Made by a program: the position numbers and the translations under genes
DNA from: a virus
Reading direction: 5' to 3' (one strand)
DNA: 64,000 nt
IMG/VR virus record: IMGVR_UViG_3300034374_001920
Coordinates: 1 to 64,000 of that record
Notes under the pieces: model-generated
The model's input: only the letters and a program-made list of their open reading frames with translations
Databases searched by the model: none
What the model was told of the DNA's origin: nothing
Shown here: positions 11,410 to 50,822 of the stretch, piece after piece
Position numbering within the stretch: the stretch's first letter is position 1
Layout of the letters: the number at the start of each line of letters is the position of its first letter

Positions 11410-12822
11410 ATGGCTGCGGTTATTACAGATAAATTAAAAAAACAACTCCTTGTTGACATATATAAGGATTTTAAAGATTCCGATAATTACTATTATGCGG
11501 GAATTGGTCGTTCTCAGGATTGGAATGATTCTGATGTTGCACCTGTTCCTCATAATACTGTTCGGGATGAAAGAAACCTTCGTCTTGATTTACAGTCAGT
11601 AAAAAATATCACAGACATTTCCTTTGTCGTTCCTCGTGAGAACTGGGTATCTGGTGCGGTTTATTCTGGATACAACGATAACCAAGACGGTTATCCCACA
11701 AACTCCTATTACGCCATGAACGATAACCAACAGGTTTATATCTGTCTGCAACAGAGTAGAACAAACGCCAACCCGCCTCAGGTAATCGCATCTACAATTC
11801 AACCAACAGGAAACACTGAGGGTACTCCGTTCCGAACTGTGGACGGTTACATGTGGAAATTCCTGTACTCTATTGGTGCATTGAAGGCGTCTAAGTTTAT
11901 TTCGTCTGCGTACATTCCCGTTGCGAAAATGCAAGACAGTTCAGGTGCGACACTTCTGTTAGATCAAATTGGAGTTGACTCCGACTCTCCTGCGGAAGAC
12001 GTAGAACAACAACTGATTCAACAGGCTGCGGTTGGTGGACAGATTTTGGGTTACACTATTGTAAATGGTGGAACCGGATATACAAGTGCACCTACTGCCA
12101 CAATAGTTGGAGACGGTACAAACGCAAAGGCGGTTGTTGAGACTGCGGGTAACACAATCACTAAAGTTTATGTCAAGGATAGTTCCGATGGTTCTATCGC
12201 ATTCGGTCAAAACTATACTTACGCAAACGTAACCTTGACTGGTGGTGGTGGCGCCGGTGGGTCAATCAGACCCATCATTGGACCCGAAAAAGGACTTGGT
12301 TTTGATGCACGTAATGACCTCAAGTCTTCTGCAATTATGTTTAACACTAAACCAGATGGTGGTGAGGCGGTAAATGGTAAGAACACATTTGTTGTGTCAC
12401 AAGATTTCCGTCAAATCGGATTGTTCAAGAACATCATGAAATCTCAATTGGTGGATTCTGCATTTACAGAAGAGACCGGACTTGCACTCAACTCTCTAGA
12501 CTTAACTTCAATTACGGATGGTCCTTTTGTAAACGACCTCGTAATTCAAGGTGGTACTTCTGGTGCTAAGGCATACATTGTCGATACAGACTCGAACAGT
12601 GTGTTTATCTCACAGAACGAATACACCGGATTTACGGTATTCGATTCTGGCGAAACTATCTCTATCGTAGAGGGTGGTGGTGCAACTACTGCTACAGTGG
12701 ACAAGGTTCTTACGGGAGTTGTAGATAAACACTCCGGAGAACTTCTATATATTGATAACCGCGCAGCGGTCTTTAGGTCTAACGATCAGACCGAAGATAT
12801 TAAAATAGTAATTCAACTCTAA
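11410..12822 (+). CDS. gp8: gp8 baseplate wedge protein
   Basis: 470 residues (T4 gp8 is 334). The N-terminal ~160 residues follow the gp8 pattern: YYAGIGRSQDW, then APVPHNTV, FVVPRENW, VYICLQQ, EGTPFRTVDGYMWKFLYSI and FISSAYIPV, matching T4 FGRSEPW, PPYPTDSV, VIPRRDW, VYRCLD, EGTIEPGDGYVWEYLFEI in order. The extra length is a middle insertion (~residues 200-290) with the GGTGYTSAPTATI-type motif also seen in the gp14 insertion. gp8 bridges gp6/gp7 in each wedge arm. It is followed 12 bases later by the giant DUF4815-type gene. Confidence 0.88.
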   Translation: MAAVITDKLKKQLLVDIYKDFKDSDNYYYAGIGRSQDWNDSDVAPVPHNTVRDERNLRLDLQSVKNITDISFVVPRENWVSGAVYSGYNDNQDGYPTNSYYAMNDNQQVYICLQQSRTNANPPQVIASTIQPTGNTEGTPFRTVDGYMWKFLYSIGALKASKFISSAYIPVAKMQDSSGATLLLDQIGVDSDSPAEDVEQQLIQQAAVGGQILGYTIVNGGTGYTSAPTATIVGDGTNAKAVVETAGNTITKVYVKDSSDGSIAFGQNYTYANVTLTGGGGAGGSIRPIIGPEKGLGFDARNDLKSSAIMFNTKPDGGEAVNGKNTFVVSQDFRQIGLFKNIMKSQLVDSAFTEETGLALNSLDLTSITDGPFVNDLVIQGGTSGAKAYIVDTDSNSVFISQNEYTGFTVFDSGETISIVEGGGATTATVDKVLTGVVDKHSGELLYIDNRAAVFRSNDQTEDIKIVIQL

Positions 12823-12834
12823 GGTTGTGAAGAA

Positions 12835-15800
12835 ATGGTAAAACCGTATACAGAACAGATTTTTAGAACTTCCTATAAGGATGATTTTAAAGATAGTGAT
12901 AACTATCATCGAATCCTCTTTAACAGTGGACGTGCACTTCAGGCCCGTGAGTTAACTCAACTTCAAACCATAATCCAATCGGAGATTGAGAGGTTTGCAA
13001 GTAACATCTTTGTTGATGGTGCACCTGTAAATCCAGGCGGTATGTCACACTATAATGACCTACCGTTTATTAAAATTGCAGCGACTACCCCTTTACCCGC
13101 AGATAAAACAACTCTGAGAAACGTAATTCTCACAGGTGGTCAATCAGGACTGAAGGTAAAGGTAGTACATGCTATTGCCGCAGATACCAATACGGGTGAT
13201 CCCGAAACACTTTACGTTCAATATCTGGACGCTGGAGACCAAGCGGATTCTGATGGGTTCGGTGGACCAGTTTTAGCAACCAACCCAAGAGTAACGCCCG
13301 GCGAAACGTTGACTGGTAATATTGGACTGTCAGCAGTAGCCTTTGACGTACAAACAACCAACACTTCAACAAACCCCGCAATCGGATTGGGTAACCTTTT
13401 TGAAGTAAACGCTGGTAGTTTCTATGTTCAGGGACACTTCGTGTTCAACGAAAATCAAATTATTGTCACACAGAAGTATGCACAAAACTTTACTGGAGAG
13501 GTTGGATTTAAGGTTACGCAAGACATTGTAACTTCTTCTGATAACGAGGCGTTGTTTGACAACCAAGGTGCGACTCCAAACAGATCCTCGCCCGGCGCTG
13601 ATCGATACAGAATTAGATTAACTCTTATTAAGAAAACAGATCTTGCGGCAGACGAAAACTATGTACGTGCGGCGAATATTTACCTTGGTGTGATTACCAG
13701 TCAGGCGAAGAAGGTTGATGGTTTCAATTCGGTAAAAGATTTTGTCGCTGTACGAAATAAAGAGATTTCTGGTAACTTCATTAAGAAGTATTTCAAGGCG
13801 AACTTTACACCCAATGATGATGACACATTCAAATTAAAGGTAACGCCTGGCACCGCATACATTAATGGTTATCGTGTTGATATCAGAGCACCTTCTACAC
13901 TTCTGGTAGACAGACCAAAACAGACGTATACCTTTAACAACGAAAGTGTGCCGGTTGATTACGGTAACTACTTTGTGGTATCTAATACGGCTGGTGGTCA
14001 AGGTATGCCCGATTTCGGTTCGTGTGAAGAGATGACTCTTTATGATTCCGCAAATCTTGGTGGTACTGCAATTGGTACATGTAGAGCCCGTGCAATTACA
14101 GAGTGGCAGAACGGTCTCTATAAGTTACACGTGTTTAACATTCGAATCACCACAGCGAACAAGAGTTCGAGAGATGTTCGTTCGTTCGGTAGTGCGGGAA
14201 CATACTACAACAACTATGTAGCGAACAACCAGACTCTTTTTGATACCAAGAAAAAGAAACTGATGTTTGACCTTCCCTTCCCAAGACCTCAGTCTTTCAG
14301 TGATATGTCTGTCACGGGTCAAAGGGTAAAGAGTGGTACAGCAGATGGTTCAGGTAACGTTACAATAACATTAACCAGTCTTGACGAAGCGTTTACAAAT
14401 ACTGGTGATTGGGTAATCGCTAGTTCAACTGATGCGTTTGTTACGGGTTGGACTGTATCTGTTGGTGGAGGAGGAAACACTGCTACGATTAGTGGTCTGA
14501 GCAGCGGTACTATCTACGAGATTGCAACTTACGTTCGAAAGAGTAATGCAACTATTCGATCCAAGACTTTGCAAGAGACAACGACAACAGCGACTCTGGA
14601 TTCGGATGGAAACGGAAACAAGTACATCGAACTTGGTAAGTCCGATATCTATCAACTTTTGAGAGTCCGAAAATACGACTCCGATGGTGATAACATCTTC
14701 GGTAACTTCATTCTCGACACGGGTTTGAAAGACACTCACTACGATGACGGTAGACTCATCTACAAAAACACTGGTCTTGACTCAGATCAGGAACCAGTAT
14801 TCGTTCGATACAAATATTTCGAACACGGTAACGGTGACTTCTTTGCTGTAAACTCCTATACAGGACAGGTAAACTACAGAGATATTCCGGTACACAGAAC
14901 AGATGATGGAAGACTTGTCTCACTTAGAGACGTAGTTGACTTCCGTCCTGCAACTAACGGTTCTGGATCTTTTAACGTTGTCAACGAACTACCACAACCT
15001 TCGGATCTAGTTTCCGCTGACGTGGCGTATTATGTTGGACGTAAAGACAAGTTGATTCTCTCTCAGAACGGTGAGTTGAGATACTTGCAAGGTGTTCCTG
15101 AGTTGGATCCTTCTTTCCCAACAACACCCGTTGACTGTATCGATTTGTATAAGTTCCACCTCGAACCTTTCACTCTTCACACCAAGGACTTGAAATCGCG
15201 TCTTCTTCCCATGAAGGGATACACAATGGAAGACATTGGTAAACTGGATAAGAGGATTGATAAGGTAGAAGAGATGGCGACACTCTCTCTATTGGAGTTG
15301 TCAACCCTAAGTTTACAGGTACAAGACTCCAATGGTTTGAGTAGAACTAAGTCCGGTTTCTTTGTGGACAACTTTGCAAATCACCTATTCTCAGATACAA
15401 AGAACGTAGAGTATCGTGCGTCACTTGACCCACAAGAAAAACTTTTGCGTCCTTCACACAGAACACACAACATCGATTTGTTCTGGGATTCTGCACAGGC
15501 TGCACAAGATGCGGTGACTAAGAAAGGTGACTTGATATTACTTGATTATACCGAAGTTAATTGGTTAGAACAACCTGTTGCGTCTAGGACAGAAAACCTA
15601 AACCCCTTCCACATCGAAAAGATCGAAGGACACATCGACTTGTCTCCCGCATCTGATCACTGGAGGGAGACGGAAATTGCAGCGCCTCACGTTATTGATC
15701 AGGGTGCGGTACTTGATACTTCTCAGGCGGTTCTTTGGAACTCGCACCAGTGGGATTGGGGTGGAGTAGACATTAACGATCTTCAAGTTGGTGCAACTTC

Positions 15801-18552: not shown

Positions 18553-18560
18553 GGTACGTA

Positions 18561-18785
18561 ATGAGTAAATTGACGAAGATAGAAGACGCTGATGGTTTTT
18601 TCCGAAATCAGTCTGGGGTTGTGGTTAATATAAATAAAGAAGACGTTGCATTAACACAACAAAGAAGACAGAAACGAAAAGACCAAGAAGCGGAACATGT
18701 TCACATGGTCGAAACTGTAAAATCATTGGAAGAGGAGATGAGTGAAATTAAATCCCTTCTTTCGCAACTAGTAGAGAAATTATAG
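18561..18785 (+). CDS. Small coiled-coil protein
   Basis: 74 residues. The C-terminal half (ETVKSLEEEMSEIKSLLSQLVEKL) has a clear leucine/valine heptad pattern, so a trimeric or dimeric coiled coil is likely. The N-terminus has DGFFRNQSGVVVNINKEDV. It sits 8 bases after the giant structural gene and ends immediately before the ATG of the next fibre gene at 18786. It is probably a minor structural or fibre-connecting protein. No family name can be given. Confidence 0.7.
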   Translation: MSKLTKIEDADGFFRNQSGVVVNINKEDVALTQQRRQKRKDQEAEHVHMVETVKSLEEEMSEIKSLLSQLVEKL

Positions 18786-21392
18786 ATGGCACGCCCTATT
18801 ACACTCATAACAGATACGTTTAAGGTACTTAGAGATAACATCAATACTATCTCTAATAACGTTGGCGATCCGGATCTTCTAACCACAACGACGAGAGCGT
18901 TCACTCTAGGAAACACTGGGGTCGCGCAAAGATCAGACTCTTCTGATGTTGTTAGTGCGTTAAACGAACTCGACTCTGACCTTCACGGTGCAGGCGGTGG
19001 TGATGTAAAGAATGATCTGAACTACATCTCCTACGCAATCAATCGTGTCCGTGATAGTGGTATGACGGGTGCAATGAACGCTATCGATGCATATATCGGT
19101 GGTGACTCAGATACTCTAAATGTTGAAGCGAACACGATCAAAGATGCGATCAACGAGATCGAAGCGGTCTTTGACGCAAGTACACTCAAGATTAATGCGG
19201 GAGGTGACTTCCGATTTGATGGTGCGGGTGACCTAGAGGTTAACTTAGATGGAGGGGATGTTACCTTCCTCAGTGACTCCGATCAGTACGCACATTTTAA
19301 TCTTAGAGACAGTGCCGCCGATTTTGTACAAACATACACCCACAGTCTCAGGATTAGAACTGCGGACTCTGCGGCCGGTAACGTATACTTAGATGCGGGG
19401 GGAGACATTACTCTCGACGCAGACGGAGGTAACGTATATCTTAAGGACGGTGGTGCAACGCATTTTGACTACTCTCTGGGTTCAACCAACACGGTAACAG
19501 TAACCGGAAACTTGACACATGATGTTTCTGGTGATATAGTACTGGACGCCGGTACTCTTAACATAGATTTCTTAGGGGCGGGGACAACACGTTTCGCCTA
19601 TGGTCTTGGTGCATCTAACACACTAGATGTCACAGGTAATCTTTCCGAAGTGGTTTCAGGAACCTACACAGAGAGTGCGGGTGGAAACTATCATGTCGGA
19701 AACACTGGGACATACGAAGTAGTACCTACCGGAAACGCTACTGTGGATGCGGGTGGAGATATCATCCTTGACGCAGATGGTGGTAACGTCACACTCAAAG
19801 ATGACGATAGTGCGGCATTTGATTTCAGTCTCGTAGACGGTATTGTCTCTAGAACTGGTCACACTACACTTGATGTTTCTGGTAACATTACTCTTGACGC
19901 TGATGGTGGTAACACCTACATCAAAGACGGCGGTACTACTCAGTTCCAGTTCATTGCGGGAACCAACAAAGAGATTGACGTTCCGGCTGGCAACTTGACA
20001 GTTGACGTTGCGGGTGATATAGTACTCGACGCAGACGGCGGAGACATCGACTTTAAAGATAATGGAACTGCAAGGTTCTCTTATGGTCTAGGTGCAACGA
20101 ATACACTTGAGGTTAACGGTAATCTGACTCAGACAGTATCGGGTAACGTAATCGATAGTGCTAATGGGACATATACTGTAACTTCTACAGACGATATGTC
20201 ACATACTACTCTTGGTAGATACACTCTATCAGCAGATAGTGCTGTTATTATAACATCTGATTCTGCAATTGTCAATAGTGCCATTGGTTTTGCTGTAAAC
20301 ACAACTAACGGTTATATTGATCTTAATGCTTCTGGTGCATACGGAACAGTAAGAGTTGATGCCGATCATGCTATTGTCCTTGATGCTGACGATGGTGACA
20401 TCTATATTAATGATGGAGGAATCACTGCTTACCACATTATGTCATCTGGTACAATTTCTCGTGACGGAGACTTGACACTAGACATTTCTGGTGATATAAC
20501 ACTAGATGCAGATGGCGGAGACGTATTCCTCAAAGACGGTGGAACTCAGTACGGTGCGTTAACCAACACATCCGGTAACCTCATCGTCAAGTCCGGTACG
20601 ACTACTGCACTGACATTCTCTGGTGCGAACGTTACTACGGGTGGCAACATCACGGTAGGTGGGAACACCATTAGTAGAACAGGTGCATTGACACTAGATG
20701 TTTCTAGTGGTATTAGTCTTGACGCTGGTACTGGTATCGTATACCTGAAAGACAATGGTATCACTTACGGATCGTTAAGAAATCCTGCCGGTGCAAAAAC
20801 CCTTGACATCTATAGTAATACGACCAAGGCAATCGGGATCGATAGTTCTTCGAACGTCACGATTACCGGAACGGTCACTGAGGGTACTACACTTGGCACA
20901 ACATCAACTCACTTGGGTGGTGCGATCAACGAAATCCACACTGAGTTGGATTCCGCTACTACTGATCTTCAGACAACCAAGGGTAGGGTAACTAATCTCG
21001 AATCTCAGATGGATTCTAATGAGGGAATCATTGGTGTCTCAGTAGAATGGAATGCGGACAATACCTACAGTTGGATTCACTCAACGTCCAACAGGGCCGC
21101 AATCAACGATCTCGACTCTGCGATTGGACATCTTGCAGACTTAGACAATACCACTTTCGCTGGTGCAAATGATAAAGACAATGTTGTGACTGCATTGAAC
21201 GTACTTGCGGGTGACGTGCAAGACGTTCAGGGTGATGCGGGAACACTAGATAGTAGAATCGGTTCACTTGCAAACCTGGCCGCCTTCTTCGATAGTGCGG
21301 GGGCGACATCAAGTATTGTAAACGCCCTAAATCACATGGCAAGTAGAGTGGTCAATGTGTATGACGAAAATGGCACTCTGTTAAACACTTAA
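18786..21392 (+). CDS. Tail fibre with repeated beta-structural shaft
   Basis: 868 residues. The N-terminal ~180 residues are helical (NYISYAINRVRDSG, INEIEAVFDAS). Residues ~190-650 hold at least seven imperfect repeats around DVSGDITLDADGGNVYLKDGG, alternating with F.YGLGA.NTLDVTGNL strands, the look of a beta-helical trimeric shaft. The end (~690-868) is helical with a terminal VNVYDENGTLLNT. That ending recurs as INVYNSSGTLLN in the fibre at 33766-37218, which suggests a shared capping or docking peptide. It is a late structural gene with no separate promoter seen. Confidence 0.75.
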   Translation: MARPITLITDTFKVLRDNINTISNNVGDPDLLTTTTRAFTLGNTGVAQRSDSSDVVSALNELDSDLHGAGGGDVKNDLNYISYAINRVRDSGMTGAMNAIDAYIGGDSDTLNVEANTIKDAINEIEAVFDASTLKINAGGDFRFDGAGDLEVNLDGGDVTFLSDSDQYAHFNLRDSAADFVQTYTHSLRIRTADSAAGNVYLDAGGDITLDADGGNVYLKDGGATHFDYSLGSTNTVTVTGNLTHDVSGDIVLDAGTLNIDFLGAGTTRFAYGLGASNTLDVTGNLSEVVSGTYTESAGGNYHVGNTGTYEVVPTGNATVDAGGDIILDADGGNVTLKDDDSAAFDFSLVDGIVSRTGHTTLDVSGNITLDADGGNTYIKDGGTTQFQFIAGTNKEIDVPAGNLTVDVAGDIVLDADGGDIDFKDNGTARFSYGLGATNTLEVNGNLTQTVSGNVIDSANGTYTVTSTDDMSHTTLGRYTLSADSAVIITSDSAIVNSAIGFAVNTTNGYIDLNASGAYGTVRVDADHAIVLDADDGDIYINDGGITAYHIMSSGTISRDGDLTLDISGDITLDADGGDVFLKDGGTQYGALTNTSGNLIVKSGTTTALTFSGANVTTGGNITVGGNTISRTGALTLDVSSGISLDAGTGIVYLKDNGITYGSLRNPAGAKTLDIYSNTTKAIGIDSSSNVTITGTVTEGTTLGTTSTHLGGAINEIHTELDSATTDLQTTKGRVTNLESQMDSNEGIIGVSVEWNADNTYSWIHSTSNRAAINDLDSAIGHLADLDNTTFAGANDKDNVVTALNVLAGDVQDVQGDAGTLDSRIGSLANLAAFFDSAGATSSIVNALNHMASRVVNVYDENGTLLNT

Positions 21393-21409
21393 GTTAAGGG
21401 ACGGTAGTA

Positions 21410-24004
21410 ATGCCAATTGCGAAGAGTAAGCCATTAAAACTCAACAGTCCCGATCAAGGCGATCTAAAGAGACTTAGTAGTACAGAAGAAAATTACCTAT
21501 CATATCTGATTGGGCAACACTTCTGTGCGGATAGTGATGGCGACAATGAGATTGGAAATCTAACACTTACTAGTACTAATGCAAACACCGTAGGTTCGTT
21601 TGTTGATACCCTCATAAACGAACCAAGTGGAACGCATCCAACTTCTGCAATTACGTCAACATCAACTACGACTACTCTGTACCAAAAATACGGTACAGCG
21701 GACGAGACTGATTCCGACTTCACAAAACCTATTGCATACTACAACCCTCTCACAGACGGTAGTACCGATCTTGGTGCGGAAGGTGTTTATGAGATGGCGG
21801 ATTCTGACATGAATCGTTTAGTCGATAGACTAAATGGTCGAATCGCGTTGTCCGATTATCTTGGATCTTTTAAACTCAGTAATAGTACGACATCGCCTGG
21901 GGCAGGATATGTCAAATTCATAGAAGACGTTTTTACAGATAATATCGAAGTCGATACGAATACTACAGACAATTTTTCTATCTGGAGAAGAGAGAGTCAG
22001 ACTGCACCTTCGTCTATTACAGACAGTGATGGTAACACAACACTCCTATCCTGCATAAACAGAGACAGTGGTGGTAACTACCTCGGCATTGGTGTGATGT
22101 CGGATCGTGCGATAAAAGTTTCTCTTGGACAACGTGCAAAGACTAGACGTTCTGCTTCTGATGGGATTGGTTCATATGTTTTGAGATCAAGTTCTCAGGG
22201 TGCACCTTCTGGTAGTGGTAGTTGGAGAGCAGTGGGTTCTGCGACAAACCGTAGAAGAGACCTAATTCAAACTTCGTATACTCGTACCAGAAACTCCACG
22301 TATACCAGAGACAGACAGTCAACCTATGCGGGAATTTATAACAGAACTAGAGTATCGAATTACACTAGGAATAGAACGTCCACATATTCTAGAAATTTCG
22401 TAGGCGACTTTGTTGCGACTTATCAAGGCAACTACATTGCAAACTTTATAGGTAACTATTCTCGTGGTTTCGTAGGTAATTACTCACGTAATTTTGCGGG
22501 TAACTATATCGGAGACTTTATTGGTAACTATCAAAGAGGGTTTGTCGGTAACTATACCGGAGACTTTACTGGTAACTACGCCCGTAACTTTCTTACGGGG
22601 TATTCCCGAAACTTCACTCGTGATAGGACATCAAATCAGACCGCTGTAAGAACGCAGACTCGTACCTCTTCATATTCTAGAACTTTCTCTAGGGTAAGAA
22701 GTTCAGCGTATACCAGAACGAGGACTTCTTATTACTCAAGAAATAGTGTTGCAAATAGAAACTCTCAGTACAACAGAACCTCTACACGTACTAGGTATGA
22801 ATACTACTCTCGTTCTTTTGCGGGTAACTACGCACGTGCGTATACCAGAGATCGTCAACAAACTAGACACTCGACTTATAATAGAACCTTTATAGGTAAC
22901 TATTCCCGTAACTATACACGGTTCTTTACTGGAGACTACACAAGAAACTCTTTTTATAACAGAACGGCATATTACAATCGGTTTCGTCCGAATCCAAACT
23001 GGGATCCTTGGAATGCAGCTCAAGGCCCCATATATTACTTAGGAGTCTACTCCCGAAATATCGCAACGGAAGGGCCTCTGTCATATAGTAGATCGTTTAC
23101 CGGAAACTATTCAGGTAATGCACCGAACTACAGTAGAACTATTGTTTCGATTGGTCCACCTTGGCAGTGGAACTGGATTGCGGGCGAGTTCCCATCAGTC
23201 TATACTAGAACTTCACAATATACAGCGGCTTTCCAAAGAGTTCGTGTAGAAACTTATAACGCGAATTTTACCAGAAACCGAACCTCGAATTACGCAAGAG
23301 CGTTTACGAGAGATCGGATCTCATCGTATGCAAGACTTTTTGTCGCCAACTATATTGGAAACTATCAGCGAGTATTTACAAGAAGTCGGTCCTCAAATTT
23401 CTCACGTAATTTTGGGGGGAACTTTATAGGTGACTATGCGAGAACTTTCATAGGTGACTTCACTGGTAATTACTCACGTGATTTTGGGGGTAATTACTCA
23501 CGTAACTTTACACGAAACAGGAATTCTGCATACAGTAGAAATTTCATTGGTAACTACACTGGGGACTTCTTAGCGAATTATATTGGTAATTACGCACGTA
23601 ACTACTTTAGAGTAACACGGACATCTACATATACTAGAAACTCAACTAGAGATTCTCAGAGAACTATAGGTAGTGATTACACTCGAAATTCTACAAGAGA
23701 CTCGACTAGAGTAAGATCAAGTACTTACACTAGAACTCGAAGTTCTACGTATACTAGAGACAGTACCGTTGGTCCTTATACAAGAAACAGGAACTCAAAT
23801 TTCACGGCAACTAGAACGTCCTCATATTCTAGAGATTTCATAGGCGATTATACTAGAGGATTTTTAGGAGATTATATTGGCGATTATGCAAGAGGGTTTA
23901 TTGGAAATTACTCTCGAACCTTCACTGGTAACTACACAGGTGAGACTGTCGGCAGTTCAACGGAACTTATCGAAACGTATACCTTGTATGTTAAATATGC
24001 ATAA
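21410..24004 (+). CDS. Tetrapeptide-repeat fibre protein A
   Basis: 864 residues. Residues ~1-285 are an N-terminal head shared with the next gene (EENYLSYLIG; LTLTSTNANTVGSFVDT; THPTSAITSTSTTTTLYQ). Residues ~288-845 are almost wholly a four-residue repeat, [Y/F/R/S]-x-[R/G/S]-[N/D/T/S], for example YTRN, FVGD, RVSN, STRD. It is interrupted around residues 515-610 by a Trp/Pro-rich island (PNWDPWN, PPWQWNWI). The short C-terminal tail (ETYTLYVKYA) is also shared. Composition is dominated by Tyr, Arg, Asn, Ser, Thr and Gly, with very few Lys or Glu. Late gene position among fibres points to an extended fibre or adhesin. The biochemical role is unknown. Confidence 0.75.
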   Translation: MPIAKSKPLKLNSPDQGDLKRLSSTEENYLSYLIGQHFCADSDGDNEIGNLTLTSTNANTVGSFVDTLINEPSGTHPTSAITSTSTTTTLYQKYGTADETDSDFTKPIAYYNPLTDGSTDLGAEGVYEMADSDMNRLVDRLNGRIALSDYLGSFKLSNSTTSPGAGYVKFIEDVFTDNIEVDTNTTDNFSIWRRESQTAPSSITDSDGNTTLLSCINRDSGGNYLGIGVMSDRAIKVSLGQRAKTRRSASDGIGSYVLRSSSQGAPSGSGSWRAVGSATNRRRDLIQTSYTRTRNSTYTRDRQSTYAGIYNRTRVSNYTRNRTSTYSRNFVGDFVATYQGNYIANFIGNYSRGFVGNYSRNFAGNYIGDFIGNYQRGFVGNYTGDFTGNYARNFLTGYSRNFTRDRTSNQTAVRTQTRTSSYSRTFSRVRSSAYTRTRTSYYSRNSVANRNSQYNRTSTRTRYEYYSRSFAGNYARAYTRDRQQTRHSTYNRTFIGNYSRNYTRFFTGDYTRNSFYNRTAYYNRFRPNPNWDPWNAAQGPIYYLGVYSRNIATEGPLSYSRSFTGNYSGNAPNYSRTIVSIGPPWQWNWIAGEFPSVYTRTSQYTAAFQRVRVETYNANFTRNRTSNYARAFTRDRISSYARLFVANYIGNYQRVFTRSRSSNFSRNFGGNFIGDYARTFIGDFTGNYSRDFGGNYSRNFTRNRNSAYSRNFIGNYTGDFLANYIGNYARNYFRVTRTSTYTRNSTRDSQRTIGSDYTRNSTRDSTRVRSSTYTRTRSSTYTRDSTVGPYTRNRNSNFTATRTSSYSRDFIGDYTRGFLGDYIGDYARGFIGNYSRTFTGNYTGETVGSSTELIETYTLYVKYA
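22275..23945. repeat. 12-base-period coding repeat (tetrapeptide) in fibre A
   Basis: The DNA repeats with a 12-base period reflecting a tetrapeptide unit. Codons for the same residue vary (GGT/GGA, AAC/AAT, AGA/CGT), so the repeat is kept at protein level rather than being a fresh slippage product. The array breaks at ~22960-23260 for a Trp/Pro-rich segment. Confidence 0.85.
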
Positions 24005-24025
24005 ATACTCACAACAGGAGTAAAT

Positions 24026-27000
24026 ATGTCATCTAACATACCATTGAAATTAGAGGGAACCGCAGGCGATCTGCAAGAGATGACCTCTGGTGAGGAGAAC
24101 TACATCTCTTATATCGTCGGTAAGGATAACCTTGCCGCGACTACTGGTGTGTCGGATTTAACTCTAACATCTACTGGTAACACCTCTATTGGATCGTTCG
24201 TTAACACCTTCTACAACGAAGCGGTGGGAACTCACCCAGCGTCTTCAATTACTTCGGGGTCAACGACTACAACAGTATATCAGGTTGCGGGAACAGAATC
24301 TCCGGACACTGGTAGTCTTCGTCCCATAGGTTACGCAACAGATGGCGGTTCCACTCCTAGTTTTTATGAGATGCCTGATTCTGATCTGAACGTTCTTGCG
24401 CGTCGAGTAAACTCACGTATTGCAACTTCGGACTATCCGGGCATCTACAAGTTAGCGACTGCCGCACCTAGTGGTGACTATGCAGTAAAAGTTTCTAACG
24501 TATTTACGGATACACAGACAGACGGTACTACAACACAATATAACATCTATCAAAGAACCGCAATGACCGCACCCACCACAGTCAGACCCGTTGGTCTTAG
24601 TGGTGGCGATCTTAAAGAGATGGCGGACAGTGACATCTCAGACTTGATAGGATCTTTTGTGCGTACACTTCGTGCAACGTCTGGAGAAATAGGATCATAC
24701 CAACTGAGATCCTCATCACAAGGTGCACCAACAGATGCGGGTACTTGGACTTCGGTAGGAACTGCAACAGATACGAAGAAAAATATTGTTGAAACAAACT
24801 ACACCCGAAACAGGAATTCTGCATACAGTAGGACTCGAAGTTCGAACTATACACGGACACGGGGTTCTACGTATACTCGCACGTCTCTTAGAAGCCGTGT
24901 CTCGAATTACGCTGGTGATTATGTTGGTAATTATACCAGAAACTTTATTGGTGATTACACCCGCGATTATCTGGGTAATTATATTGGCGACTTTATCGGG
25001 AACTACTCTCGCACCAGAGTATCAACATACTCTCGAACCAGAATAACAGACTACGCCGGTAACTTTATTGGTAACTACTCCAGAACTAGAGTATCCAATT
25101 ATACAAGGGATAGTCAAAGGACTTCGGTTCGCACCAGAGTCTCTGCGTACTCCAGAACCAGACCTTCTACTTACCAAAGGGATAGAGTGACCAACTTTGT
25201 CGGTGACTTTATTGGTAACTACACTCGCAATAGAATATCCAACTACACAAGAACTCGTGTGTCATCTTACGCTGGGGACTATGTTGGTAACTACGCACGT
25301 AACTTCCTTGGTAACTATAACAGAAATTTCTTGGGTAACTATCAGAGAAGTTTTGCCGGTGATTACGTAGGTAACTATACTAGAAACTCAACTAGAGATT
25401 CTCAGAGAACCAGAACTTCTACCTACACTCGAACGAGTACACGTACAAGACTTTCAACATATACTCGAACGAGTACACGTACAAGAAGTTCAGCGTACAC
25501 ACGAAACAGTACCAGAAACCGTGTATCTAACTATCTGGGTAACTACAACAGAAACTTCGCTGGTAATTACGTAGGTAACTATAACAGAAGTTTTGTGGGT
25601 AACTACGTAGGTAACTTCCTTGGTAACTACGTGGGTGATTTTGTTGGAGACTATACTCGACAAGGTGCATACGCTCGCGCATATGCGGGTGACTATCTGG
25701 GTAATGTCAACTACGTAGGTAACTACGCAGGAACCGTAAACTATCAACGTACTCGTGCAACCAATTATCAGAGGACTAGTACTGCGCCTCTTGATTATAC
25801 TCGTGCACGTCCCGCAACTTTAGATTATACACGTACTCGTGCAACCAACTACGCAAGAACTGTAGCATACACTCGTGCACGTCCTGCAACTTTAGATTAT
25901 ACAAGGACCAGTACACGTACAAGTACTGCAACTGGTAACTATACTAGGAACCGTGTAGCTACACTGGACTACACCAGAGATCGTCAGCAAAACTATGCAC
26001 GTACTTTGTATTACACTAGAACCAGTACTGGATCGGCCTCATATACCAGAAACAGAGTTGGTTCACAAGGATACAGTAGAACACTTAACTACACACGTGA
26101 TGTCTACTATTACAGATCGACTCCGGCTCCGTATGGTTCGGTGTATGGTAGAACCCAAAACTTCTCTCGTACACTTACGTACTACAGAAACGCAACGTTC
26201 ACCGGAAACTACAGTCGTAACCTCAGTTATACGGGTGACTATTTCCGTCTCGTATACTACTTGGCGAACTTCGTAGGTAACTACACTCGTAACGCTACAT
26301 ATACCGGAGATTATACTCGTACATTCAGTTACGCTGGTAACTTTACAGGTAACTACACTCGTAGCGTAACCTATACTGGTAACTACGCTCGTACCATAAA
26401 CTATACGGGTGACTTCGTTGGTAACTACACTCGTAACGTAACCTATACTGGTAACTATTTAAGAACCGGATCATATTTGGGTGACTACGTTGGCAACTTC
26501 GTGGGTGACTATGTTAATGAAAATGCGGTTGCCTATGCGGGAGACTACATCAACGAAAACGTAAATTACGTTGGTAACTATGCACGAAACTTCTATCGAA
26601 CACTCAACTATCAACGTACCCGTGTAACCGACTATCAACGTACCCGTGCAACTGATTACACACGTACTCGCGTGTCTGCTTACAGTAGAACAAGTACCCG
26701 AACCAGAGTATCCGCTTATTCTCAAAACTACGCAAGGACTTTCGTAGGGGACTTCACTGGTAACTATGCGAGAAACTTCGCCGGTGACTATGTGGGTAAC
26801 TACTCAAGAGGTTTCGCTGGTGACTATGTGGGTAACTATGCACGTAACTTCCTTGGTAACTATACTGGGGACTTTATTGGCAACTACACAAGAACTTCTT
26901 TGAGGACTCGTTATTCACAATATACAAGAACTCGCGTATCGTCCTATACTAGAAACAGATCGTCAACCTACGCAAGAACCTCTACACGTACTAGTAACAG

Positions 27001-27532
27001 AGATTTCATTGGTGACTACACTCGTGGGTTCCTTGGTAATTACACACGGAACAGCGTCAATACCTTTGCGGGTAACTTTATAGGTGACTACGCCAGAAAC
27101 TTTATTGGTAACTATACACGCAACTTCGAAGGTAACTACCTTGGTAACTATGTCGGAGACTATACACGTGACTTCGTGGGTAACTACTCAAGAGACAGAG
27201 TAACTATATTCACGGGTGACTTTATCGGTAACTATGCGAGAAACTTCATTGGAGAGTATTCAAGAAACTCAACCAGAGATTCGCAGAGAACCAGAACCTC
27301 AGCGTTTACTAGAACCCGAAATTCTGCGTACACTCGTACATCAACAAGAACAAGTACACAAACCTTCGCTGGAGATTACGTGGGTAACTACGCACGTGAC
27401 TTCATTGGAGACTACAGTCGTGGGTTCATTGGAAACTATCAAAGAACTTTCGTTGGTAACTACACAGGTACAACCATCGATTCCGGTTCGTCCACAATCC
27501 AAACATACACGTTATATGTGAGATCCGCTTGA
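24026..27532 (+). CDS. Tetrapeptide-repeat fibre protein B
   Basis: 1168 residues, a tandem paralogue of the preceding gene. The head (~1-255) aligns with fibre A (EENYISYIVG; LTLTSTGNTSIGSFVNT; THPASSITSGSTTTTVYQ), and the tail ends IQTYTLYVRSA. Residues ~257-1148, roughly 220 units, are the same four-residue repeat. It has long runs of FVGNYxRN-type octads and RTRxSxYTRT-type octads, plus variants with LDYTRARPAT near residues 590-650. There is no Trp/Pro island like that of fibre A. Spacing to fibre A is 21 bases, with a near-consensus late element (CATAAATA, 24000-24007) between them. It is a large extended structural protein, presumably on the virion surface. Confidence 0.75.
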   Translation: MSSNIPLKLEGTAGDLQEMTSGEENYISYIVGKDNLAATTGVSDLTLTSTGNTSIGSFVNTFYNEAVGTHPASSITSGSTTTTVYQVAGTESPDTGSLRPIGYATDGGSTPSFYEMPDSDLNVLARRVNSRIATSDYPGIYKLATAAPSGDYAVKVSNVFTDTQTDGTTTQYNIYQRTAMTAPTTVRPVGLSGGDLKEMADSDISDLIGSFVRTLRATSGEIGSYQLRSSSQGAPTDAGTWTSVGTATDTKKNIVETNYTRNRNSAYSRTRSSNYTRTRGSTYTRTSLRSRVSNYAGDYVGNYTRNFIGDYTRDYLGNYIGDFIGNYSRTRVSTYSRTRITDYAGNFIGNYSRTRVSNYTRDSQRTSVRTRVSAYSRTRPSTYQRDRVTNFVGDFIGNYTRNRISNYTRTRVSSYAGDYVGNYARNFLGNYNRNFLGNYQRSFAGDYVGNYTRNSTRDSQRTRTSTYTRTSTRTRLSTYTRTSTRTRSSAYTRNSTRNRVSNYLGNYNRNFAGNYVGNYNRSFVGNYVGNFLGNYVGDFVGDYTRQGAYARAYAGDYLGNVNYVGNYAGTVNYQRTRATNYQRTSTAPLDYTRARPATLDYTRTRATNYARTVAYTRARPATLDYTRTSTRTSTATGNYTRNRVATLDYTRDRQQNYARTLYYTRTSTGSASYTRNRVGSQGYSRTLNYTRDVYYYRSTPAPYGSVYGRTQNFSRTLTYYRNATFTGNYSRNLSYTGDYFRLVYYLANFVGNYTRNATYTGDYTRTFSYAGNFTGNYTRSVTYTGNYARTINYTGDFVGNYTRNVTYTGNYLRTGSYLGDYVGNFVGDYVNENAVAYAGDYINENVNYVGNYARNFYRTLNYQRTRVTDYQRTRATDYTRTRVSAYSRTSTRTRVSAYSQNYARTFVGDFTGNYARNFAGDYVGNYSRGFAGDYVGNYARNFLGNYTGDFIGNYTRTSLRTRYSQYTRTRVSSYTRNRSSTYARTSTRTSNRDFIGDYTRGFLGNYTRNSVNTFAGNFIGDYARNFIGNYTRNFEGNYLGNYVGDYTRDFVGNYSRDRVTIFTGDFIGNYARNFIGEYSRNSTRDSQRTRTSAFTRTRNSAYTRTSTRTSTQTFAGDYVGNYARDFIGDYSRGFIGNYQRTFVGNYTGTTIDSGSSTIQTYTLYVRSA
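24795..27470. repeat. 12-base-period coding repeat (tetrapeptide) in fibre B
   Basis: About 2.7 kb of tetrapeptide-encoding repeat. It contains exact DNA identities with fibre A (23630-23664 = 25376-25410, 35 bases; 23513-23538 = 24806-24831, 26 bases) and an internal exact 24-base direct repeat (25427-25450 and 25463-25486, period 36). These are good substrates for homologous recombination. Confidence 0.85.
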
Positions 27533-27601: not shown

Positions 27602-28069
27602 ATGAGTTATAGGAAATGGCTTGACAACGCCTTCTGGGAAACCAGTGAAAAAGAAATGTTAAACTGCATCCTTGAGATGGAGGATGATGTTGGTCGAGTA
27701 ACTCGACAAGTAATGAAGTTAAAAAAGACTGACTCCGAAGGAAACGAGAATCCGGACTTCGTTGAGGTTGTTGAATTCTTGGGTCAAGAACTCATTGACG
27801 AGAACACCGAAGAACGCAACGTTCGCAAGAAGAGAGAATCTGAAGAAGAGAAACAACGACAACTTGAACACGCTAAGGCGAGAAAGTTGGAAGAACTCTT
27901 CAACTACAAGTTGGAAGCCTTTGAGGTTCCGGAGATCAAAGACTCTAAAAACCGTCCTCTAAAATCTAAACTTCGTCGGGCAAAGAATAAGGTCGAAGTG
28001 AACCTATATGCAATTATGATCCTGATGGATGAACTCAAGAAGGCGGAAGAGAGTGACGGAGAAGAGTAG
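27602..28069 (+). CDS. Unknown charged, helical protein
   Basis: 155 residues, not recognised. It is strongly charged: a helical N-terminus with Trp residues (YRKWLDNAFW), a Lys/Glu/Arg-rich middle (residues ~75-105, coiled-coil-like) and a basic KSKLRRAKNK segment near 120. GGAG lies 8 bases before the ATG. It is the first gene behind the sigma-70 promoter at 27529-27557 and overlaps the next gene's start, so it is co-expressed with a glycosyltransferase and a 2OG-oxygenase-like protein rather than with the surrounding late fibre genes. Confidence 0.7.
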   Translation: MSYRKWLDNAFWETSEKEMLNCILEMEDDVGRVTRQVMKLKKTDSEGNENPDFVEVVEFLGQELIDENTEERNVRKKRESEEEKQRQLEHAKARKLEELFNYKLEAFEVPEIKDSKNRPLKSKLRRAKNKVEVNLYAIMILMDELKKAEESDGEE

Positions 28070-28787
28070 AGGTTTTGTAATTGTCGCATCTAAGAAAATT
28101 AATTTCTATAGGTACGCAATCAATCTGGCAGAGTCTATCCTTGACTATTACGAGGATGCGAAGATCACACTCTTTTGTGAAGAGTGGATGTTCGAAGAGA
28201 TCCATCGTGAAATCTTTGATCAAGTAATCTGGTGTTCCGATCACTATCGTGCAAAGTTATGGGGTATGGCGAAAACCCCATATGATCAAACGATGTACCT
28301 TGATGCGGATATGGAAGTCGAACATGAAGACATCCTAACCTGTTGGGACGAATTCGATAAGGGTGATGTAGTATTCTCCAAACTCACCGAAGAAAGAAGT
28401 TACACCTATGCAGAGTGGGAGTTCGACACACCGGAAGGAAAGACAGCGTTTACTTTGTGTGGTGGTATATGTCTCTATGATATGACCGTCCCTCTGGTAA
28501 AAGAATTCATGGATGACTGGTGGGATTTGACAAGGCGTCAAATGGATCATGAATGGTGGCCAAAAGGATACGCTGAGTCTCTTCGTTCTTGGGATCAGTT
28601 CTCACTCTGGTGGTTGACCACCAAAGAAGAGAAGTACAAGGACTTGAAGATCGGTGTCTTTGAAGACGATGTTCGTTGGAATTATTATAACGCATGGAAC
28701 TGGGCAAGGACAAAACCCGAATCGGGTAAACCAGTAATCATTAGACATTACTCATGCGGTCTTGATAAGGATGGATATATTTTATGA
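28053..28787 (+). CDS. GT-A family glycosyltransferase-like protein
   Basis: I prefer the GTG at 28053, preceded by a GGAAGA ribosome site and overlapping the previous gene by 17 bases; an ATG at 28029 would add eight basic residues. The protein (244 residues) starts with a beta-strand (RGFVIVAS), has a DAKITLFCEE strand and a YLDADMEV motif near residue 85. That is the DxD signature used by GT-A enzymes to bind Mn2+ and the nucleotide-sugar. A conserved-looking WDQFSLWWL and a late RHYSC histidine fit a GT8/GT32-like fold. The substrate is unknown and could be a virion protein, host surface sugar or other acceptor. It is co-transcribed with a 2OG-oxygenase-like protein. Confidence 0.75.
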   Translation: MTEKSRGFVIVASKKINFYRYAINLAESILDYYEDAKITLFCEEWMFEEIHREIFDQVIWCSDHYRAKLWGMAKTPYDQTMYLDADMEVEHEDILTCWDEFDKGDVVFSKLTEERSYTYAEWEFDTPEGKTAFTLCGGICLYDMTVPLVKEFMDDWWDLTRRQMDHEWWPKGYAESLRSWDQFSLWWLTTKEEKYKDLKIGVFEDDVRWNYYNAWNWARTKPESGKPVIIRHYSCGLDKDGYIL

Positions 28788-29491
28788 TGACAGACATACC
28801 TCTCCGGAACTCTGAGTTCCTAGAGATGTTGGAAAACTGTAGAAAACTGTTAACCGATGACGTAGAGGGTTTTCAAAAAAATCTTAGATATCACTGTGAG
28901 TCCGAACTTGATGACACCGAAGGTCAACGAGAGAAGTGGACCAGCGAAGATTATCTCAAGTATGTGGTTGAGGTTGAAGGTGATAAACATGAAGGGTTTC
29001 CTGATCACCTAGTTGGGTATGGTTTCAAACCACACCAACCAGATCAAAATGTCAAGTTGTTCAAACCTGGCCACGATCCAGTGTGGACTAATGAGTTCAT
29101 CACTAAACTCTACGCGCACAATACAGATCTGGTAAATTTTCTTGGTGCAAAGAACAATGCGTTGTTCTGTTACTATCCGCCAGGCGGGTACATCTCATGG
29201 CATAACAATTGGAATGCGTCTGCATACAATTTGATATGTTCTTGGTCTGAGACTGGAGATGGGTGGTTCAAGTATCTTGATCCCAAAACAAGAGAGATAG
29301 TAACCATTCCGGACGAATCTGGTTGGCAGATCAAGGCCGGATACTTTGGTGGTCAACACGAAAAGGATAGGGTGTGTTATCATGCAGCGTCTACGGACTG
29401 TTGGAGGTTAACGGTATCCTTTATCTGGAACCACATGGAGAACTCACAAAACCTTCAGGACGATCTGTTATACGAAATTAGTTCTGAATAA
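28784..29491 (+). CDS. 2OG-Fe(II) oxygenase-like protein with HxN in place of HxD
   Basis: 235 residues. The C-terminal half has the double-stranded beta-helix layout of 2-oxoglutarate/Fe(II) oxygenases: YYPPGGYISWHNNWN (residues ~126-140), a sheet segment GDGWFKYLD, VCYHAAST carrying the distal His (~204), then WRLTVSFIW with the Arg expected to bind 2-oxoglutarate. The first metal motif reads H-N-N, where the family norm is H-x-D/E. It may bind iron poorly, work as a halogenase-like variant, or be inactive. The start overlaps the preceding glycosyltransferase stop (ATGATG). It could modify the same acceptor as that enzyme. Confidence 0.65.
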   Translation: MMTDIPLRNSEFLEMLENCRKLLTDDVEGFQKNLRYHCESELDDTEGQREKWTSEDYLKYVVEVEGDKHEGFPDHLVGYGFKPHQPDQNVKLFKPGHDPVWTNEFITKLYAHNTDLVNFLGAKNNALFCYYPPGGYISWHNNWNASAYNLICSWSETGDGWFKYLDPKTREIVTIPDESGWQIKAGYFGGQHEKDRVCYHAASTDCWRLTVSFIWNHMENSQNLQDDLLYEISSE

Positions 29492-29556: not shown

Positions 29557-29916
29557 ATGGCACACTACGAAGATATTATAATTGATCAGGGTGCAGACGT
29601 TGCAATCGAGTTAAATTTGGTGGAACAAGATGGTTCCAAAAAGAATTTGACTGGGTACAGCGCTGCCGCCAAATTGAAACGAAATTACAACTCTACAGAT
29701 AGTGCAGACGTTATCGACTTCACATCTGTAATTGCAGATCCCGCAACTGACGGGGTTCTCATACTTTCCCTCACCAATAGTCAAACCGATGCATTGAGTT
29801 CTCGTGGTAGATATGTCTATGACGTAGAAATCTCGCATCAAGACTCCAATTCCAACACACTTATAGAAAGAGTACTACAAGGTAAAATATCAGTTTCACC
29901 ATCTGTTACAAGGTAA
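29557..29916 (+). CDS. Small beta-rich virion structural protein
   Basis: 119 residues. The pattern (IIIDQGADVAIELNLVEQDGSKKNLTGYSAAAKLKRN, then SRGRYVYDVEISHQDSN and VLQGKISVSPSVTR) is that of the small Ig-like or BppU-N-terminal-type domain found at the start of fibre operons in many phages. It is the first gene of the second late fibre cluster and is 7 bases from the next gene. A role as fibre base or connector is inferred from fold pattern and position. Confidence 0.65.
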   Translation: MAHYEDIIIDQGADVAIELNLVEQDGSKKNLTGYSAAAKLKRNYNSTDSADVIDFTSVIADPATDGVLILSLTNSQTDALSSRGRYVYDVEISHQDSNSNTLIERVLQGKISVSPSVTR

Positions 29917-50790: not shown

Positions 50791-50822
50791 AACCAACTGT
50801 TGGTTAAATTTAACCAACTGTT
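50789..50822. repeat. Operator-like palindrome with repeated half-site
   Basis: TTAACCAAC and GTTGGTTAA form a perfect 9-base inverted repeat (50789-50807). Its TTAACCAACTGTT sequence recurs at 50810-50822, a 21-base step of two helical turns. It overlaps the 3' end of the reverse-strand endonuclease-like gene. Confidence 0.5.

Follow-up and report, generated by a model that had tools for sequence, protein, structure and literature searches.

The window analysed here, a 64,000-nucleotide stretch of viral DNA, contains two adjacent long genes whose products, beyond an N-terminal domain, are both built largely from the tetrad [Y/F/R/S]-x-[R/G/S]-[N/D/T/S]. This raises the questions of whether the repeat is genuine, what kind of structure it could form, and what the two proteins are likely to do.

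Two tandem fibre genes and a downstream cassette

The two genes and their neighbours are listed in Table 1, in which the tetrad regions are referred to as shafts; the coordinates and residue ranges given for both proteins in the original prediction are correct. The N-terminal parts of the two proteins share 42% identity over 276 columns, which supports their description as tandem fibres. Periodicity is mostly lost at residues 514-615 of the first fibre, where a single run of three tetrads (559-570) occurs, and the tail of the second fibre terminates in TYTLYVRSA.

Table 1. Coordinates of the fibre genes, their domains and neighbouring genes in the window.
Feature	Coordinates	Strand	Comment
Baseplate wedge subunit	11410..12822	+	PHROG 438
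Structural ORF, 868 aa	18786..21392	+	Other, longer repeats; partial PHROG matches, baseplate hub/assembly
First tetrad fibre	21410..24004	+	864 aa: N-domain 1-287, tetrad shaft 288-845, C-terminal tail 846-864
Tetrad shaft, first fibre	22271..23944	+	Residues 288-845
Second tetrad fibre	24026..27532	+	1168 aa: N-domain 1-256, tetrad shaft 257-1148, then tail
N-terminal domain, second fibre	24026..24805	+	Three beta-beta-alpha modules by eye
Tetrad shaft, second fibre	24794..27469	+	Residues 257-1148; irregular register ~545-860
Conserved cassette protein, 155 aa	27602..28069	+	Without PHROG match at E ≤ 0.001
Glycosyltransferase-like protein	28059..28787	+	Invariant Y-x-D-x-D; ORF as listed starts at 28029
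Conserved cassette protein	28784..29491	+	Invariant H-x-N ... H ... R-x-T
Cassette protein	29557..29916	+	Best match PHROG 1084, of unknown function; also matches PHROG 3304, 'L-shaped tail fiber protein assembly'

PHROG searches assign genes around the fibres to the baseplate wedge, hub, and sheath and to L-shaped fibre assembly, and the baseplate wedge subunit places the fibres within the tail module. Long fibre genes situated in a structural module near baseplate genes are likewise present in T4 (gp34 and gp37) and in the pelagimyophage host-recognition cluster. The window fibres differ from the T4 long tail fibres in having no PHROG family.

Four cassette genes lie downstream of the second fibre. 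The product of the first could, as a guess, be a fibre chaperone. In the glycosyltransferase-like protein D82 and D84 are invariant in 29 rows; among the 29 members, 9 match Glycos_transf_2 (best E 0.0019) and 8 match the unrelated family ExbD (best E 0.0038), and the PDB rows for this protein include no glycosyltransferase. The third protein contains a motif, picked by eye, of H140-x-N142 ... H200 ... R208-x-T210 that is invariant in 29 rows. The iron ligands of 2-oxoglutarate/Fe(II) oxygenases are H-x-D/E ... H, but here an Asn stands where the acidic ligand is expected and no oxygenase is present among the Pfam or PDB matches, such that the protein is oxygenase-like by eye only.

In all 46 testable cases, which are distinct sequences but not independent lineages, the four cassette genes, including a relative of the fibre-assembly gene at 29557..29916, lie downstream of the last fibre. 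A tetrad ORF is present upstream of the glycosyltransferase-like gene at 60 of 62 loci (also distinct sequences rather than independent lineages), 10 of the 72 loci in total having been left out as they contain less than 1.3 kb of upstream sequence. The two loci without one are L277 and L293, and L120, on the same contig as L293, does have one. More distant glycosyltransferase-like relatives (35-36% identity) have an upstream tetrad ORF at 11 of 11 testable loci, several of which are near-identical to one another.

Periodicity and evolution of the tetrad repeat

The tetrad repeat is genuine in both fibres. The identity between residues at a given lag was compared with that in 500 sequences obtained by shuffling each protein. 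At lag 4 it was 0.179 in the first fibre against 0.094 in the shuffles (z 7.1) and 0.213 against 0.100 in the second (z 11.3), and the signal on which the original prediction turned is thus retained. Lag 8 (z 12.8 and 20.6 for the first and second fibres) and lag 24 (z 12.8 and 23.5, the latter the second fibre's maximum) are also enriched, as is every multiple of four up to 32 in both fibres (z 5 to 23.5). All 16 odd lags between 1 and 31 are depleted in both fibres (z -2.7 to -9.2), showing that a two-residue alternation, a feature not stated previously, underlies the tetrad. The lag-24 peak prompted consideration of a fixed 24-residue coil, which was rejected because just 167 of 1,265 shaft length changes (see below) are multiples of 24; the observed patterns of 8 and 12 residues both divide evenly into 24.

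Depletion at lags 5, 9, and 3, together with a null Pfam search at E ≤ 1, confirms that this is not a pentapeptide repeat, an RTX nonapeptide, or a collagen repeat. Pentapeptide-repeat proteins have the order small residue, Asn/Asp, large residue, and the tetrad shaft has this same order, but the fibres differ in being depleted at lag five (z -5.5 and -7.5) and in having no Pfam family.

Counting the strict pattern in runs of at least two tetrads, the second fibre contains 172 tetrads (688 of 892 shaft residues) in 29 runs, the longest of 38 at residues 391-542, rather than the single register across about 220 units that had been proposed. The first fibre contains 96 tetrads (384 of 558 shaft residues) in 22 runs, the longest of 19. 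Tetrad register shifts from run to run, chiefly within residues ~545-860 of the second fibre, and the two-residue phase is steadier: across residues 257-856 of the second fibre, one phase holds a large majority of the Y, F, R, and G residues in each 60-residue block, and beyond 856 the opposite phase does so in every block.

Length variation among related shafts follows the same unit. Net changes were measured between unique shared 10-mers in the shafts, with 148 non-shaft changes excluded, and of the 1,265 changes recorded, which are not independent events, 1,237 are even and 1,103 are multiples of four. Summed from the same count, 659 are equal to 4 modulo 8 and 444 to 0 modulo 8, indicating that the unit is a tetrad and not an octad. 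A BLAST-based count gave 345 indels, of which 316 are even and 225 are multiples of four, but we have used the anchor-based count because gap placement may bias the BLAST-based one. DNA slippage alone was rejected as an explanation, since identical tetrads are coded in several ways (the 12 copies of YTRN, for example, have 9 forms). Imperfect tandem arrays do occur in the DNA.

The four tetrad positions differ greatly in conservation. Between the second fibre and four relatives, identity is 0.87-0.90 at position 1 and 0.91-0.94 at position 3, and falls to 0.36-0.49 at position 2 and 0.49-0.56 at position 4; for the first fibre and three relatives the values are 0.53-0.69 and 0.61-0.77 at positions 1 and 3, and 0.15-0.27 and 0.40 at positions 2 and 4. 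Chance identity expected from composition is ~0.34, ~0.18, ~0.36, and ~0.26 at positions 1 to 4, respectively. Positions 1 and 3 (Tyr/Phe and Arg/Gly/Ser) are thus fixed, and positions 2 and 4 drift. One earlier per-residue conservation measure took only windows at least 50% identical, but these tetrad-position identities had no such cut. Shaft dN/dS is 0.09-0.19 in three of ten pairs, those with unsaturated dS.

Neighbouring tetrads also follow an adjacency rule, in which Arg at position 3 is followed by a tetrad beginning with Phe, Arg, or Ser, and Gly or Ser by one beginning with Tyr or Phe. Among the nine commonest tetrad types, an Arg-at-3 tetrad followed by a Tyr-initial tetrad was observed 155 times against 1,398 expected, and a Gly/Ser/Ala-at-3 tetrad followed by an Arg- or Ser-initial tetrad 30 times against 907, although part of this rule may be an artefact because the sequence was tiled with a fixed pattern. 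STRT runs are readable in two phases.

Proposed structure and maturation of the shaft

The best overall explanation, to which we give an even chance, is that these are tail fibres of a T4-like phage with an oligomeric beta shaft whose Tyr/Phe/Arg face points inward, perhaps modified by the cassette. Both proteins would be fibres of a contractile-tailed phage, each fixed to the tail by its conserved N-terminal domain, and gene context and regularity suggest that the tetrad region forms the shaft. The shaft is presumably a beta structure made from several identical chains, three most likely, with the Tyr/Phe/Arg/Gly face packed inward and Thr/Ser/Val/Ala together with Asn/Asp outside. Where position 3 is Gly or Ser, it may provide room or a kink ahead of the next aromatic residue, and where it is Arg it may prolong the strand and stack on neighbouring residues. 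An extra tetrad would lengthen every chain equally and leave the packing undisturbed, so that the fibre could grow and carry inserted domains, which may contact the host. In the least certain step, the glycosyltransferase-like and oxygenase-like proteins may modify the fibre.

In favour of this explanation are the gene context, the lag pattern, length changes mostly in fours, the conservation of positions 1 and 3, the low dN/dS, the adjacency rule, the scarcity of Lys in the shafts and, with the reservation given below, the gp5-like octads. Our interpretation is that the conserved face packs inward, although conservation alone cannot prove packing, and it could instead reflect function at an exposed surface. 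A single-chain prediction that includes the shaft gives it a pLDDT of 24-35 with almost no strands, which counts against a beta shaft but is neither proof nor disproof of a fold needing several chains, and searches of PDB and BFVD with this longer model gave no match at E 0.001 or Z 2. Also weighing against the inward-packed shaft are the absence of any sequence relative or clear fold relative of solved structure, the existence of shafts with little or no Arg, and the varying number of tetrads between small residues, the last two detailed below.

The low pLDDT would also be expected if the shaft were a flexible, largely disordered tether in which the alternation is a compositional habit. Its Tyr and Arg residues would then be weak stickers like those of prion-like low-complexity domains, and Tyr, Arg, Gly, Asn, Ser, and Thr do abound in the shafts; but the preservation of positions 1 and 3 in the second fibre, length changes mostly in fours, the adjacency rule, and purifying selection on the shafts make such a tether improbable. 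We consider very unlikely the originally proposed solenoid or cross-beta fibre with an exposed cationic aromatic face that binds anionic glycans lengthwise. The repeat is regular and the shafts of the window fibres have net charges of +56 and +80, but Lys is nearly absent (63 Lys and 6,249 Arg in shafts, 350 and 441 in N-domain parts, or 1% and 44% Lys among the two), whereas Lys would be tolerated if positive charge were all that the surface required. Moreover, L022 and the distant cassette-linked L305, L312, and L315 (those seen in full) have low-Arg or Arg-free shafts of mostly Tyr-x-Gly-x tetrads, and L121 has an acidic stretch (YVGQVPEQ) with tetrads retained. Charge is therefore not the conserved property, the cationic face has little support, and the tetrad shaft in general must be able to do without Arg stacking.

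A true T4 gp5-type intertwined triple-stranded beta-helix, with octads forming the sides, is similarly doubtful. The gp5 octapeptide has Gly at a, Asn/Asp at b, and an inward-pointing Val at g (PMC3004832), and the beta-helix spans residues 389-575 (PMC4576200). Part of the tetrad shaft resembles this octapeptide, in that G-[ND]-Y-x-R-x-F-x-G octads place Gly, Asn/Asp, and a hydrophobic residue at the equivalents of a, b, and g, the last lying two positions ahead of the following Gly, and by analogy the gp5 inward face would correspond to the conserved tetrad face. Octads of the form G-[NDTS]-x4-hydrophobic-x-G number 13 and 26 in the two fibres against shuffle means of 0.5 and 0.8, but cover part of the shaft only, and much of the excess follows from the repeat itself because shuffles break tetrads. 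The commonest spacing between YR tetrads is indeed two tetrads (729), but three is also common (458). One-tetrad stretches between small residues (3,801) outnumber those of two (2,406), with three occurring 322 times and four 122 times, a poor fit to a prism with single-width sides, and the excess of 4-modulo-8 over 0-modulo-8 length changes argues against a regular eight-residue period. A shaft profile against PDB returned only unrelated proteins, at E 0.34 and 1 (two unrelated chains and no gp5 chain at E ≤ 10, although such repeats can diverge past detection). Where gp5 has a period of eight, the unit here is four, and small residues are separated by one, two, three, or more tetrads; aromatic residues and Arg are present where gp5 has Val, and the shafts extend to hundreds or thousands of residues.

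The cassette step alone has a further alternative, a real possibility if the less likely one, that the target of the enzymes is the host surface, such as the O-chain, rather than the fibre, with the effect of blocking other phages. PMC7029224 reports that pelagimyophages carry glycosyltransferases next to the tail fibres within their host-recognition cluster, gives GT8 as the commonest family in these phages, and proposes host O-chain modification. However, the cassette genes are tied to the tetrad fibre itself, both in their position downstream of the last fibre and in the association of the distant glycosyltransferase-like relatives with upstream tetrad ORFs. The inward-packed beta shaft might also represent a new fibre class, with a continuous core stack of Tyr, Phe, and, in most members seen, Arg, a small tetrad alphabet with an adjacency rule, whole-tetrad growth to thousands of residues, and maturation by a dedicated co-travelling glycosyltransferase-like and oxygenase-like cassette, but this full combination is tentative and rather unlikely. 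If the reading is correct, phages own a modular shaft that grows in four-residue steps by a simple rule and offers a natural blueprint for designed fibres, together with a fold based on aromatic and Arg packing. The close association with two enzyme-like genes allows fibre modification to be tested directly.

Relatives and distribution

As had been suggested, neither fibre has a relative of described fold or family in Pfam (E ≤ 1), PHROG (E ≤ 0.1), or PDB, and none of 13 N-domains has a PHROG family. Of three related fibres, L008 has a match at E 0.00048 to PHROG 15773, whose function is unknown, although no individual stretch passes, and L009 and L025 have PHROG rows at E 0.03-0.04; these are taken as chance. 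No description of the tetrad repeat was found among the matches listed from the open-licence PubMed Central literature. The N-domain of the second fibre is modelled by AlphaFold2 with a mean pLDDT of 88 and by eye contains three beta-beta-alpha modules, with 18-23 identities per module pair (without a control). This model has no clear PDB fold match by Foldseek (best E 0.25), although an unlisted family could still match; VIA-align gave a best Z of 3.0 (2qp2, 110 residues aligned, rmsd 4.1), and an N-domain profile has no PDB match other than one chance row at E 0.86.

Viral metagenome contigs contain 213 N-domain relatives and at least 119 tetrad stretches, yet tblastn of 50,697 phage records identified relatives in just one, suggesting that a frequent type of tail fibre may be undescribed; a shaft without the N-domain could escape this search because the BLAST low-complexity filter was active. 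The single record is phage C48C1 (OQ984149), whose protein WJE88074.1, annotated as hypothetical, shares the N-domain (48.5% identity over the query) and the tetrad shaft, and like the window has downstream cassette relatives, at 69.8% and 40.0% identity. C48C1 differs in encoding one 3,347-aa fibre with inserted non-tetrad stretches, where the window has a pair of shorter fibres.

Order within the fibre shafts

Two fibre ORFs adjoin in the window, and the 42% identity between their N-terminal parts over 276 columns indicates that they are related. In each, an N-domain is followed by a shaft of four-residue units (tetrads) of the form [Y/F/R/S]-x-[R/G/S]-[N/D/T/S], a new repeat serving a known job, that of a phage fibre shaft. 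The four-residue repeat of the original prediction is sound, if somewhat overstated: self-identity compared with 500 shuffles gives z scores of 7.1, 12.8 and 12.8 at lags 4, 8 and 24 in the first fibre, and 11.3, 20.6 and 23.5 in the second. All odd lags from 1 to 31 are depleted, so the base layer is a two-residue alternation like that of a beta strand, with the tetrad imposed on top. The claim that some 220 units stay in register in the second fibre is too strong, as a strict pattern finds 172 tetrads there, divided among 29 runs of no more than 38 units; the first fibre has 96 tetrads, divided among 22 runs of no more than 19.

The unit of the shaft is four residues. Net length changes between the shafts of relatives, measured between shared unique 10-mers and not independent because ancestry is shared, number 1,265. 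All but 28 of them (1,237) are even, and 1,103 are multiples of four; those equal to 4 modulo 8 (659) exceed those equal to 0 modulo 8 (444).

The order of the shaft goes beyond what was originally observed. Between the second fibre and four relatives, identity is 0.87-0.94 at tetrad positions 1 and 3 versus 0.36-0.56 at positions 2 and 4, and the first fibre shows the same contrast with three relatives, at lower identity. In well-aligned shaft columns of ten pairs, the residues most often kept are Arg (97%), Tyr (92%), Gly (91%) and Phe (89%), followed by Ser (73%), Thr (71%), Asn (64%), Val (61%), Asp (56%), Ile (52%) and Leu (45%). The dN/dS ratio is 0.09-0.19 in the shaft (the three of ten pairs with unsaturated dS) and 0.05-0.16 in the N-domain (all ten pairs). 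Lysine is scarce in the shaft: in 89 nonredundant ORFs it accounts for 63 of 6,312 Arg plus Lys residues in shaft tetrads and 996 of 4,691 outside them, and for 350 of 791 in the N-domain parts recognizable by a motif.

Neighboring tetrads are also constrained, as seen in 8,805 tetrads from these 89 ORFs, with expected values calculated among the nine commonest tetrad types. After Arg at position 3 the next tetrad begins with Phe, Arg or Ser and rarely with Tyr (155 observed, 1,398 expected), and after Gly, Ser or Ala it begins with Tyr or Phe and almost never with Arg or Ser (30 cases against an expectation of 907). Large and small residues are positioned relative to one another in the manner of a packed core.

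A cassette downstream of the fibres

Four genes follow the last fibre, encoding in order a 155-aa protein, a glycosyltransferase-like protein, an oxygenase-like protein with an H-x-N ... H ... R-x-T motif, and a fibre-assembly match. For 74 of the 107 distinct fibre ends, 3 kb of downstream sequence is available. Another fibre comes next in 28 of these cases, and all 46 that are last in a run are followed by the full cassette. A reverse search with the glycosyltransferase-like protein recovered 72 loci, and a tetrad ORF lies upstream in 60 of the 62 with 1.3 kb of upstream sequence. All 11 of the testable distant loci, at 35-36% identity and in several cases nearly identical to one another, are included in this count. 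Their fibres end in KLWIRTA, KLWVRTA or KLWVRTV; the three whose full sequence was read consist largely of Tyr-x-Gly-x and contain little Arg.

The enzyme names of both proteins are weak, because Glycos_transf_2 is matched in nine of 29 glycosyltransferase-like members (best E 0.0019) with an unrelated family matching nearly as well in eight, and because the oxygenase-like protein carries Asn at a site expected to be acidic. Among phage records both were found only in Phage C48C1.

Candidate structures and functions

The T4 gp5 beta-helix is the best analogue of the shaft; according to PMC3004832, its octapeptide places Gly at a, Asn or Asp at b, and at g a Val that points inward. Octads of the form G-[NDTS]-x4-hydrophobic-x-G number 13 in the first fibre and 26 in the second, against shuffle means of 0.5 and 0.8, although the shuffles destroy tetrads and so overstate the likeness. 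The shaft is not classed with gp5 because it does not keep a period of eight. AlphaFold2 with 41 alignment rows gave pLDDT values mostly of 75-95 for the N-domain and 24-35 for the shaft, meaning only that a lone chain is not predicted to fold. Modeled alone, the N-domain (mean pLDDT 88) is predicted to form three beta-beta-alpha modules, weakly alike with 18-23 identities per pair, a figure without a control; a comparison with PDB structures found no clear relative of this domain.

We infer from their conservation and the near-exclusive use of Arg over Lys that tetrad positions 1 and 3 would point inward. Charge alone is presumably not what the shaft needs, since a merely charged surface would tolerate Lys, whereas Arg-specific stacking or hydrogen bonding would exclude it; a cationic, aromatic face binding anionic glycans is the least supported part of the original proposal. 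Arg-poor shafts at four related loci (L022, L305, L312 and L315) show that the tetrad can do without Arg, and they count against the inward placement of positions 1 and 3 and against an Arg-based core. They slightly lower our confidence both in the best explanation, about which we are evenly divided, that these are T4-like tail fibres with an oligomeric beta shaft, Tyr, Phe and Arg facing inward, and perhaps modification by the cassette, and in the rather doubtful reading of a new fibre class with a core of Tyr, Phe and mostly Arg, an adjacency rule, growth by whole tetrads, and maturation by a dedicated cassette. The putative cassette enzymes may modify the fibre or may instead act on the surface of the host, the target that PMC7029224 proposes for the glycosyltransferases of pelagimyophages.

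Genome setting and relatives

Coordinates of the fibres, neighboring genes and related loci
Feature	Locus	Coordinates	Remarks
ORF directly upstream of fibres	window	18786-21392	868 aa
First fibre	window	21410-24004 (+)	864 aa
Second fibre	window	24026-27532 (+)	1,168 aa
Cassette, 155-aa protein	window	27602-28069	
Cassette, glycosyltransferase-like	window	28059-28787	
Cassette, oxygenase-like	window	28784-29491	
Cassette, fibre-assembly match	window	29557-29916	
Homing endonuclease PHROG, weak match	window	50810-52048 (-)	E 0.00017
C48C1 fibre	L028 (OQ984149)	11995-22038	3,347 aa; with the L121 frame, longest found in this analysis
L121 fibre stretch	L121	1557-8369	the record of L121 has an open frame of 3,150 aa
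Second kind of tetrad protein	L009	1260-5369	
Second kind of tetrad protein	L025	902-5263	
Second kind of tetrad protein	L097	2848-7431	
Fibre ORF in two pieces	L003	2676-6200	
Fibre ORF in two pieces	L004	8477-11990	

The window comes from a virus contig of 82,077 bases, whose PHROG matches (baseplate wedge, hub, sheath, head closure, terminase and major head protein) identify it as a contractile-tailed, T4-like phage. Baseplate genes lie on one side of the fibres; the gene on the other side has a match to 'L-shaped tail fiber protein assembly'. The ORF directly upstream, perhaps a further fibre or spike, has a longer repeat of a different kind, such as DVSGDITLDADGGN. The weak homing endonuclease match is near the major head protein gene.

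Searches by tblastn with the N-domain and with the shaft each matched one of 50,697 phage records, that of C48C1 (Kyanoviridae), in which a single ORF combines a window-type N-domain, tetrads and other inserted stretches. In viral contigs a protein search found 27 loci. An N-domain profile picked up 213 related stretches, of which the top 80 were retained, and at least 119 stretches fit a DNA pattern for tetrads. Three of 21 candidate stretches in genome contigs are relatives; they lie at two loci in MAGs. Clustering of N-terminal parts was feasible for 124 of 172 nonredundant tetrad ORFs, with 113 in the window's family and seven in a second type, and three small proteins have tetrads followed by a different C-terminal domain. 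The tetrad shaft is therefore a module shared by several proteins.

The second kind of tetrad protein differs in its N-terminal domain, and a C-terminal domain replaces the TYTLYVR tail. In C48C1, L008, L094 and other fibre ORFs, tetrads are interrupted by 176 stretches longer than 50 aa, forming 67 clusters. Some look globular and may bind receptors, one of about 250 aa having 15 related copies; others correspond to irregular shaft or to fragments of the N-domain. L121 contains a long stretch of YVGQVPEQ-type repeats with the alternation and four-residue unit of the window fibres, in which Glu and Val replace Arg and Phe, reversing the charge. The two-piece fibre ORFs reflect either assembly error or a true break. 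Two adjoining tetrad ORFs also occur on contig JAAXIF010000028 (L113), filed under a Sphingobacteriales MAG. This is probably phage DNA that was binned together with the bacterium, or else a hint of the host.
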